Below, in pieces: positions 4,447-7,069 of a stretch of DNA of 64,000 bases. The stretch is taken from the NCBI RefSeq assembly GCF_021531255.1, contig NZ_JAFBIO010000001.1, positions 310,001 to 374,000 of the forward strand. Direction: 5' to 3'. The stretch is from Allofournierella massiliensis. GTDB lineage: Bacteria; Bacillota; Clostridia; Oscillospirales; Ruminococcaceae. A program made the translations under genes and the position numbers. Under the pieces are notes generated by a model. It ran no database searches, was not told the DNA's origin, and saw nothing but the letters and a program-made list of their open reading frames with translations. Each line of letters starts with the position of its first letter. Position 1 is the stretch's first letter.

Positions 4447-4510
4447 CTTGACTTGGGCAGGAAAGTTTCTATAATAAACTTGACTGGGGCAGGAAAGTTT
4501 CTATAATAAA
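4447..4510 (+). repeat. 32-bp tandem duplication, each copy a full promoter
   Basis: Units 4447-4478 and 4479-4510 are identical at 31 of 32 positions (T versus G at the eighth base). Each holds TTGACT, a 16-base spacer and TATAAT: -35 at 4448-4453 and -10 at 4470-4475 in the first; -35 at 4480-4485 and -10 at 4502-4507 in the second. Both -10 boxes sit within GTTTCTATAATAAA, an AT-rich near-palindrome that could be a Fur/PerR-type operator. The promoters drive the PerR-type regulator and the hydrogenase-rubrerythrin gene. Confidence 0.85.
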
Positions 4511-4543
4511 ATTGGAATAATTCTAAATTCTAGTGATGAATTC

Positions 4544-4918
4544 TTGAGCAAATACACAAAGAAAATTCTGGAGATTGTGCAGGCTTCCCGGGACCATATG
4601 ACGGCGGAGCAGATTTTTGGAACACTGTGGCAGACCTACCCCTCTGTGGTGCGGGCTACGGTGTACAACAACCTGAACCGGCTGTGTGAGGAAGGGAAGA
4701 TCCGAAAAATATCCCTGGAAGGAATGCCCGAACGATATGACAGAATCCAGCGGCATGACCATCTGGTGTGCAGAAAATGTGGCCGGCTGTCTGATCTGGA
4801 TCTGGGAGATATGACCCGTCAGCTGGAAAGAAAGGCGGGGATATCCATTCTTTCCTATGATTTGAAATTGTTGTATCTGTGCGAGGAGTGCAGGAATAAA
4901 TCGGAACAGAAAGGATAG
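4544..4918 (+). CDS. perR: PerR-type (Fur family) peroxide-responsive repressor
   Basis: A 124-residue Fur-family protein with a winged-helix domain ([13 protein letters not shown] recognition region, about 35-47) and a C-terminal metal domain. The structural zinc cysteines are present (C76, C79, C113, C116). The regulatory metal ligands of B. subtilis PerR all have counterparts at nearly the same spacing: H18 (H37), D66 (D85), H71 and H73 (H91, H93), D84 (D104). This supports peroxide sensing by iron-catalysed histidine oxidation rather than iron-uptake control. The N-terminus is shorter than in B. subtilis. The only possible start is TTG 4544, because an in-frame TGA lies nine bases before it, and no good ribosome-binding site is seen. 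Its stop overlaps the next gene's GTG by one base. Confidence 0.82.
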
Positions 4919-6981
4919 TGAGGAAACTGAAACATTTACCTTTGTCCGTCCGCGTCCCCATTGAAGAAGACAATCCCAGCATCATGCGCTGGGAAGAAAA
5001 GTGCATACGCTGCGGCATGTGCAAGGATGTCTGTACCAATCTGATGGGGGTTCATGGCACCTATACCCTGGAAGAAACGGGTGGGAAGGCCATCTGCATC
5101 TACTGTGGGCAGTGCGCCAATGTCTGCCCGGTAGACAGCATCACCGAAAGAGACGAAAGCCCGGCGGTGCGTCAGGCGGTGGCCGACCCGGATAAAATTG
5201 TGGTGGTCAGCACTTCGCCTGCGGTTCGGGCCTCTCTGGGCGAAGAGTTTGGCATGGAGCCCGGTGCCTTTGTGGAAGGAAAGATGGTGGCACTGCTGCG
5301 GGCGCTGGGCGCCGACTATGTGCTGGACACCAACTTTGCCGCGGATCTCACCATTGTGGAAGAAGCCAGCGAACTGGTTCGCCGCATCAAGGAAGGCGGC
5401 CGGCCTCTGCCGCAGTTTACCAGCTGCTGTCCTGGCTGGGTACGTTTTGCCGAGATCTACGCGCCGGAACTGCTGCCCCATCTTTCCACAGCCAAGAGCC
5501 CCATCGGGATGCAGGGGCCCACGGTAAAAACCTATTTTGCCAAAAAAATGGGCCTGGATCCCCGCAAGATCGTTCATGTAGCGCTAACTCCCTGCACGGC
5601 CAAGAAGTTTGAGATACGGCGGGAGGAGATGCACGCAGCTGCGGATTATCACGGCATAGAAGGAATGCGGGATACCGACCAGGTCATAACTACCCGGGAA
5701 CTGGCCCGCTGGGCCAAAGCGGCAGGAATCGAATGGGAAACCCTGCCGGATTCCGCCTATGATTCCCTCATGGGCAAGGCTTCGGGCGCGGGTGTCATCT
5801 TTGGCAATACCGGCGGAGTGATGGAGGCAGCGCTGCGCACGGCCTATGAGTACATCACGGGCCAGAAAGCACCGGATGCCCTGCTCAGCCTTCAGCCGGT
5901 TCGGGGATATGAGGGCGTGCGGGAAGCCCAGGTGGAGATCGCCGGCCAGACCATTCGGGTGGCGGTGGTATACGGCACGGCCAACGCCCGCACCTTCCTG
6001 AATCACATGAAAGAAAGCGGCAAACAATATCATTTTGTGGAAGTGATGGCCTGCCCCGGCGGATGCATCGGAGGCGGCGGTCAGCCCAAGGACCTGATGA
6101 AGGATGCGGATGAGACCCGTAAGAGCCGGATAGCGGCACTGTACCGGCGGGATGAATCCATGACCCTGCGCACCAGCCATGAAAACCCGGAAATCCGTCA
6201 GGTCTATGAGGAATTTTACGGCAAGCCCCTCAGTGAAATGGCGGAGAAAATGCTGCATACCGCCTACCGGGATCAGAGTGGAATGATCCAGAAGAAAGGA
6301 GAAACGAAAACTATGACCAAGTGGAAATGCAAGGTTTGCGGATATATCTATGAGGGCGAGAGCCTGCCGGAGGGATTCGTCTGCCCGCTGTGCAAGCAGC
6401 CCGCTTCGGCTTTTGAGAAAATTGAGGAGCCTGCGGCCAAATCCGAGGGCAAATATGCAGGGACCCAAACCGAGAAAAACCTGGAAGCGGCCTTTGCCGG
6501 GGAGTCTCAGGCCCGGAACAAGTACACCTACTTCTCGGCGGTAGCCCGCAAAGAAGGGTATGAGCAGATTGCGGAGCTTTTCCTGAAAACGGCGGAAAAC
6601 GAGAAAGCCCATGCGCAGCTGTGGTTTGAGGAACTCAACGGGCTGGGCGATACGGCGGAAAATCTTCTGCATGCCGCCGAAGGGGAGAACTACGAGTGGA
6701 CGGATATGTATGACGGCTTTGCCAAAACTGCCGAGGAAGAAGGATTCCCGGAGCTGGCCGCCAAATTCCGCCTGGTAGCCGCCATTGAAAAGCGCCACGA
6801 AGAGCGCTATCGTGCCCTGCTGCGCAATGTGGAAACCGCCAAGGTGTTTGAAAAGAGCGAGGTCAAGGTGTGGGAATGCCGCAACTGTGGCCACATCGTG
6901 GTGGGAACGGCGGCCCCGGAAGTCTGCCCGGTCTGCCTGTATTCCAAGAGCTTCTTTGAGATCAGCAGCGAGAATTACTGA
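4918..6981 (+). CDS. [FeFe] hydrogenase fused in frame to a rubredoxin-rubrerythrin-rubredoxin module
   Basis: One uninterrupted 687-codon frame. Residues 29-70 carry two [4Fe-4S] ferredoxin motifs (C29/32/35/39 and C60/63/66/70). Residues about 90-450 form the H-cluster domain with FTSCCPGW (C170, C171), TPCTAKKFE (C226) and [16 protein letters not shown] (C379, C383). After a short linker, residues 466-500 form a rubredoxin-like knuckle (C471/474/489/492). Residues about 515-640 form a rubrerythrin di-iron domain with [15 protein letters not shown] and EKRHEERY, and residues 650-681 a second rubredoxin (C654/657/670/673). Hydrogenases of this type interconvert H2 and protons; rubrerythrin reduces H2O2. 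A ribosome-binding site and ATG at the junction suggest two genes fused by stop-codon loss. The GTG start overlaps the perR stop. Confidence 0.85.
6295..6315 (+). promoter_or_regulatory. internal ribosome-binding site and ATG for stand-alone rubrerythrin
   Basis: AAAGGAG (6295-6301) lies 11 bases before the ATG at 6313, in frame with the hydrogenase. From this ATG a 222-residue rubrerythrin (6313-6981) could be made by itself. The site codes for the K-K-G-E linker of the fusion, as expected if an intergenic region had been absorbed into the frame. Confidence 0.7.
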
Positions 6982-7036: not shown

Positions 7037-7069
7037 AAAAACGCCCGGCCTTTCAGGTCGGGCGTTTTT
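7037..7069. terminator. terminator after the hydrogenase-rubrerythrin gene
   Basis: AAAAACGCCCG pairs with CGGGCGTTTTT around an eleven-base loop. It is T-rich on both strands and can therefore also end the convergent response-regulator transcript. Confidence 0.88.

Follow-up and report, generated by a model that had tools for sequence, protein, structure and literature searches.

A HydR-type hydrogenase-rubrerythrin gene with a conserved candidate start site at its domain junction and an adjoining PerR-like gene

Can a single polypeptide carry electrons from hydrogen to peroxide, and is that polypeptide the only product of its gene? The question is raised by a 64,000-nucleotide stretch of the Allofournierella massiliensis genome (contig NZ_JAFBIO010000001.1, positions 310,001 to 374,000; hereafter the window), in which translation of nucleotides 4918-6981 of the plus strand yields a single stop-free frame of 687 amino acids (aa). 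The gene, here called hydR, joins an [FeFe] hydrogenase to a rubrerythrin. Taking all parts together, we consider it likely that hydR forms an operon with a PerR-like gene, that its product is an H2-driven peroxidase and that translation starts a second time inside the gene, at Met466. The frame is made up as follows.

4918..6981, plus strand: hydR, [FeFe] hydrogenase - rubredoxin - rubrerythrin - rubredoxin, 687 aa, first codon uncertain
5002..5127, plus strand: two [4Fe-4S] motifs, Cys 29, 32, 35, 39 and Cys 60, 63, 66, 70
5194..6273, plus strand: H-cluster (catalytic) domain and C-terminal small-subunit domain, residues 93-452
6274..6312, plus strand: linker, residues 453-465, of a length that varies among relatives
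6295..6301, plus strand: putative internal Shine-Dalgarno sequence AAAGGAG, recognised from sequence and conservation
6313..6315, plus strand: internal ATG (Met466), predicted from conservation to start a free 222-aa rubredoxin-rubrerythrin-rubredoxin
6313..6978, plus strand: rubredoxin 1 (Cys 471, 474, 489, 492), di-iron domain (520-635) and rubredoxin 2 (Cys 654, 657, 670, 673)

A preliminary description, made from the DNA letters alone, had read two [4Fe-4S] motifs, an H-cluster, a rubredoxin, a rubrerythrin and a further rubredoxin in one frame of 687 codons, and translation, Pfam and NCBIfam all agree with it. Pfam recognises Fer4, Fe_hyd_lg_C (residues 93-387, E 2.6e-93) and Fe_hyd_SSU (398-452), followed in the C-terminal part by two RUBY_RBDX matches (best stretch 469-500) and Rubrerythrin (520-635, E 4.1e-22). 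The product passes both the NCBIfam model of group A [FeFe] hydrogenases (TIGR02512, 475 bits against a cut-off of 406) and that of rubrerythrin (NF045767, 265 bits against 200). The L1, L2 and L3 motifs of the H-cluster are all complete. When 20 fused sequences are aligned, all eight [4Fe-4S] cysteines and both four-cysteine rubredoxin sites show no variation; the same holds for the Glu and His residues that correspond to the di-iron ligands, as judged by alignment to 1b71 and its ligand numbering. By sequence, the best-scoring solved structures are 8a6t (HydA1 of an electron-bifurcating hydrogenase) for the hydrogenase part and 9fj2 for the rubrerythrin part. The first codon is less certain: GTG 4918 shares letters with the stop of the preceding gene (TAGTG), AAAGGA lies only 2 nucleotides (nt) before the GTG, and in some relatives the sequences point to a start about three codons further downstream (within 4918-4944).

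The window genome is a draft in 92 contigs, which might bring to mind an artefact of assembly or annotation. A search for the same domain order in other genomes, proposed in the preliminary description, found hydrogenase and rubrerythrin in one frame on complete plasmids of Paraclostridium bifermentans and Cetobacterium somerae as well as in 28 distinct genomes. The window genome is one of the 28, and so is that of L023, where the first rubredoxin is missing. These independent copies lead us to reject the artefact, whose probability we regard as negligible.

The fusion is of a known kind. The preliminary description knew of no hydrogenase described with a full rubrerythrin; this has been overtaken by the work of Taylor et al. 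(2025), who purified such a fusion from Clostridium perfringens and named it HydR (CPF_1076; PMC11926857). For this protein, CperHydR, they measured H2-dependent H2O2 reduction, gave evidence for every cofactor (one preparation contained 14 of the 18 iron ions expected), found H2 evolution to be nearly nil and inferred a homodimer from a rubrerythrin loop 13 residues shorter than that of D. vulgaris; the same paper credits the prediction of HydR, in 2010, to Calusinska et al. (PMC11926857). The window gene belongs to this HydR chimera, and its combination of domains is therefore already published. Likeness to CperHydR was judged against the published description. The L2 motif TPCTAKKFE is identical in window HydR and as quoted for CperHydR (PMC11926857), and the short, dimer-type rubrerythrin loop is found in both. 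Residues 49-220 of the window's rubrerythrin query (172 aa) align with 5-189 of the D. vulgaris chain (185 aa), a gap of 13 residues which suggests the dimer type. CpII, the uptake [FeFe] hydrogenase of Clostridium pasteurianum, compared by description only, shares Thr and Ala in L2 (TPCTAKK) but has no rubrerythrin in its description (PMC11926857). The rubrerythrins of D. vulgaris (1b71) and P. furiosus (1nnq), as well as 9fj2, have the same di-iron domain and C-terminal rubredoxin; these are free proteins, whereas the window protein adds an N-terminal rubredoxin and a hydrogenase.

By this likeness, the hydrogenase domain of window HydR would take electrons from H2 and hand them to the di-iron site by way of both [4Fe-4S] clusters and the rubredoxins, and the di-iron site would reduce H2O2 to water; two chains would probably pair via their rubrerythrin domains. 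The cofactors and the H2-dependent reaction are demonstrated for the C. perfringens protein (PMC11926857). That paper, as far as we found, does not describe a PerR-like gene in an operon with hydR, a conserved internal start or a host where maturases are not found; the words "PerR", "linker", "internal" and "Shine" do not occur in its main text (PMC11926857). No literature search was made for PerR and HydR together, and one for rubrerythrin with "internal translation initiation" returned no paper.

Upstream of hydR, on the same strand, lie a regulatory gene and its presumptive control signals, and a hairpin follows hydR.

4448..4507, plus strand: two tandem promoter-like sites, TTGACT-16-TATAAT, 11/12 positions each
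4512..4526, plus strand: 7-1-7 operator-like palindrome TTGGAATAATTCTAA, 13/14 positions to TTAGAATNATTCTAA
4544..4918, plus strand: FUR-family regulator, PerR-like, 124 aa, TTG start (PF01475, E 6.7e-20)
7037..7069, plus strand: intrinsic terminator-like hairpin, 15 pairs, T tail, longest stem in 3 kilobases (kb)

Most likely, the PerR-like gene and hydR form a two-gene operon for peroxide defence, in which the FUR-family repressor would control hydR in response to peroxide. The palindrome stands directly past the second -10 element and 17 nt ahead of the FUR-like start, and is the sole match to TTAGAATNATTCTAA at up to two mismatches in the 64 kb (0.07 expected); presumably it resembles PerR or Fur boxes. 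Twenty-two loci have a FUR homologue with 52% identity or more. Of these, 19 match TTAGAATNATTCTAA at 14/14 positions and two more at 13/14, a count that includes near-copies, divergent-tail loci and L019 and that uses a consensus derived from these same sequences; at each of these 21 loci, none of 200 shuffles matched as well. The 22nd locus (L125) has 11 positions only, and, L120 excepted, loci that lack a FUR gene or have a distant one stay below 13. The promoter-like sites are merely supportive, because their number in 3 kb (four) is near expectation (1.7, standard deviation 1.5); terminator-like sites number five against 3.9 expected. The segment 4448-4507 is itself a tandem duplication of about 32 base pairs, with TTGACT and TATAAT in either copy. 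Of the 30 fused rows, 17 have a FUR-family gene immediately upstream; they correspond to 16 of the 28 distinct fused-HydR genomes, and two of these FUR-family genes are distant (29-32% identity). HydR is tied to a PerR-like regulator in part of its family.

At the junction of the two modules, AAAGGAG (6295-6301) and ATG 6313 resemble a ribosome-binding site and a start codon from which the rubredoxin-rubrerythrin-rubredoxin part could be translated. The junction was compared in 37 genes, the window's included, whose C-terminal part has at least 150 aa (30 HydR, six with a divergent tail, and L020). A start codon stands at the head of the second module in 36 of them (ATG in 32, GTG in four); the exception, kept in the denominator, is L020, whose fusion partner is another kind of rubrerythrin-like domain. 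The codon sits exactly five residues ahead of the first C..C in 33 of the 36. In 31 representatives that are less than 95% identical, pairing with the anti-Shine-Dalgarno sequence has a mean energy of -8.1 kcal/mol at the internal start and -2.7 kcal/mol at 547 other in-frame ATGs, with values of -6 kcal/mol or lower in 26/31 and 10%, respectively. In the window gene the internal start reaches -8.0 kcal/mol, lower than any of its 18 other ATGs. AGGAGG and ATG are present in all three plasmid hydR genes examined (NZ_CP079738.1, NZ_CP092521.1 and NZ_CP143321.1; L198-L200).

The main rival to selected internal initiation holds that the full-length chain is the only product, and that the Shine-Dalgarno sequence and ATG are relics of once separate genes of an operon. 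We consider this a doubtful but serious contender. Fusions and splits are frequent in the family, the split neighbours L028, L035 and L037 being examples, and among 20 rubrerythrin modules picked by hand from fusions with other domains, seven or eight show no such site (12 have an ATG with -6 kcal/mol or lower, often in another reading frame, and a 13th has GTG with -6.6). A relic would be expected to decay, yet an AGGA or GGAG core is kept in 29 of the 31 representatives while four-fold sites are 35% identical on average (24 HydR representatives); linker length ranges from 6 to 36 residues across relatives. The first Gly codon ahead of the start is GGA in 27 of the 27 genes having one, although at 39 columns where Gly is conserved in these proteins GGA averages 23% and reaches at most 68%. 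Likewise, where the start position is Val it is encoded by GTG in four of four cases. The site is also missing where a rubredoxin tail alone follows the hydrogenase: six such genes, which fell below the 150-aa filter and were examined apart, have neither an ATG nor any start-type codon together with AGGA/GGAG (one has a GTG without the core, another a GGAG without a start codon). A conserved start and core that are absent with rubredoxin-only tails suggest that the gene probably makes both HydR and a free rubrerythrin, and internal initiation is probably under selection, judging from these patterns of conservation. The second start at Met466 would supply some free rubredoxin-rubrerythrin-rubredoxin beside HydR and, if used, would set the dose and composition of the peroxidase within one gene. 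Separate products of about 50 and 25 kDa had been proposed as a refutation of the fusion; this needs amending, as the conserved internal start predicts the full-length chain and a product of about 25 kDa together.

A conserved protein motif, K-G-E, is not favoured as the cause of the conservation at the junction, because L012, L119 and some modules on other domains translate the DNA site in a different frame (K-E-E), and because of the uniform choice of GGA.

Several findings weigh against the reading of an operon and an internal start. The best NCBIfam matches of the upstream regulator are PerR models, both under cut-off (66 against 200 and 65 against 180 bits), so that we call it only PerR-like, the FUR family itself being recognised. 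Twelve of the 28 fused-HydR genomes have no adjoining FUR gene. Two of the 31 representatives (L128 and L021) lack the core, and the Mann-Whitney value of 1e-16 for the pairing energies is not a probability, as the rows share descent. A randomisation of synonymous codons gave a weak result for the internal Shine-Dalgarno sequence (combined p 0.004; window gene p 0.21), since most of that sequence is already dictated by the residues K-G-E. An AlphaFold model of HydR was poor (mean pLDDT 66; residues 435-466 low) and was not used. Finally, the fused state changes 12 times on the hydrogenase tree, at least eight of the changes being forced by well-supported branches, and 15 times on the rubrerythrin tree, with at least 11 forced; therefore the family often fuses, splits and swaps partners, and recent fusions may have left behind some of the internal sites. 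L019, whose gene is cut by a contig end, was left out of the trees and fusion counts, and L201 (frame broken) was dropped before counting; the rubrerythrin-tree labels "GLTB" and "other", set by length of the open reading frame (ORF), are partly wrong, and only the HYD label, which is unaffected, was used.

A further group of findings bears in the same direction on the use of H2. The H-cluster is built by the known factors HydE, HydF and HydG. At 2.53 Mb and 99.9% completeness, the window genome contains three [FeFe] hydrogenase genes, and yet gave no match for HydG at E up to 0.001, none for HydE at E up to 1e-5, and for HydF none over the cut-off of 326 bits, 11 matches reaching 83 bits at most. 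In this the window's HydR differs from CperHydR as a matter of its host. The HydG search does work, matches in relatives going down to E 7e-288. We extended the survey to 57 genomes with HydR-like or related hydrogenases, in which three pairs look like one genome twice and those of L029, L030, L035 and L037 have split or plain forms. HydE and HydF were over cut-off in 12 of the 57, with HydG too in nine of the 12; none of the three was over cut-off in the other 45, and HydG-like matches solely below cut-off occurred in five of the 57. At least one maturase was present in five of the 28 distinct fused-HydR genomes. Lack of HydG marks HydR genomes only partly: among 61 relatives of the order, 34 have no HydG at E up to 1e-60, and 30 of these 34 have [FeFe] hydrogenase matches. 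Within the 61, HydG was found in one of nine HydR-type genomes against 26 of 52 others.

With the maturases not found, H2 activation is not to be taken for granted in the window host. The gene's membership in HydR is unaffected; what loses strength is the case for H2 activity in this host. The proposal of the preliminary description, an H2-driven peroxidase in one chain, stands for the family through the measurements on the C. perfringens homologue (PMC11926857), and is not secure in this organism, where use of H2 is plausible from the protein's sequence. Either a maturation route other than the known one would operate here, or another donor would feed the rubrerythrin.

The second of these choices supposes that the hydrogenase module is not used with H2 at all: its two-iron part would be missing, and the module would be a docking site or relay from ferredoxin or another donor to the rubrerythrin. 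We rate this as rather unlikely, for all that no maturase passes its cut-off in the window genome or in 45 of the 57 surveyed genomes (that count including assemblies in few contigs, namely G020, with a fused HydR in 2 contigs, and G188 and G163, in 3 and 6 contigs, both with other tail types, as well as the complete genome behind L028, where hydrogenase and rubrerythrin are separate genes). Related rubrerythrin modules are moreover joined to a glutamate-synthase-like FMN domain or to a domain with [4Fe-4S] motifs, and in Rhodospirillum rubrum, according to a passage of PMC4967309, [FeFe]-hydrogenases without maturase genes were judged to be probably inactive or to have a different role. A passage of the ProPhylo paper likewise speaks of hydrogenase genes without maturases in "a few species" (PMC3226654). 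The state of the active site argues the other way. In the H-cluster pocket and along the proton path 22 positions were compared, and 18 of them show no variation in either the 43 rows without or the 12 rows with maturases. Every cluster ligand and proton-path residue is among the 18, a degree of conservation beyond the needs of a mere relay. The other four vary as A/S in both sets, as T/A once per set, and by two single changes in the maturase-free set. These positions were mapped by motif to the CpI numbering.

The same conservation in genomes without maturases, together with the persistence of three [FeFe] hydrogenase genes in the window genome, is what favours the first choice, that a route other than HydE, HydF and HydG builds the H-cluster in this lineage. 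We hold it to be less probable still than the relay, since conservation may have another cause and no candidate factor is at hand, none having been sought. Should the hydrogenase work without HydE, HydF and HydG, it would offer a bacterial system in which to ask whether and how an H-cluster forms without the known factors. Only tentatively do we put forward the combined picture of a gene within a gene, HydR plus free rubrerythrin, whose intact hydrogenase would, without HydE, HydF and HydG, depend either on such a route or on H2-independent input.

Many gut-type anaerobes have HydR, and plasmids from two phyla carry it too. With a limit of E 1e-145, a sample of the window's family has a HydR-like hydrogenase in 30 of 396 genomes: 16 fused HydR (the window's included), five with rubredoxin - intervening part - rubredoxin, in which the middle has no E..H motif, two with one or two rubredoxins and seven with the hydrogenase alone. 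The one genome of the same genus in this sample (84% complete) has no HydR-like hydrogenase. The class sample gave three matches in 391 genomes, the window genome included, and the phylum sample 29 in 398; besides the window's own and G048, the phylum matches (28 loci seen) are hydrogenases of about 50-56% identity with tails of 2-27 residues. Among the best 80 of at least 590 matches, titled fused relatives include metagenome assemblies of Lachnospiraceae, Oscillospiraceae and Spirochaetales and the isolate Parasutterella secunda An562. Five plasmid records match at least 80% of the protein, three from Paraclostridium bifermentans and two from Cetobacterium somerae, and sequences were retrieved for four. 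Four of the five copies are annotated just "rubrerythrin", so that the hydrogenase part is hidden; the fifth has a broken frame and no annotated gene (CP124691.1, L201). On one Cetobacterium plasmid rbr precedes hydR, and ahpC is the second gene after it.

Other partners of the two modules were seen in passing. In L032 (3968-6028), L090, L124, L125, L132 and L134 the hydrogenase carries a rubredoxin, a middle without E..H motif and a rubredoxin, the middle being perhaps a degenerate rubrerythrin. The next gene in these six loci has a rubrerythrin module 83-87% identical to the window's (86-87% in L032 and L090). In L032 (6032-7222), a rubredoxin-rubrerythrin-rubredoxin stands behind an N-terminal part with [4Fe-4S] motifs; L040, L041, L046, L075 and L202 have similar ORFs of about 380-410 aa, the motifs being established for L032 only. 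A related ORF, of 546 aa, occurs in L044, by its title an archaeal (Methanomethylophilaceae) assembly. The rubrerythrin module is also fused to the glutamate-synthase-like FMN domain (PF01645) in L081 (3935-6040), L064 (4022-6151), L067 (3989-6103), L084 (3998-6043) and L058 (3-1634), an alternative electron-donor fusion which in L081, L064 and L067 stands behind a FUR-family gene.

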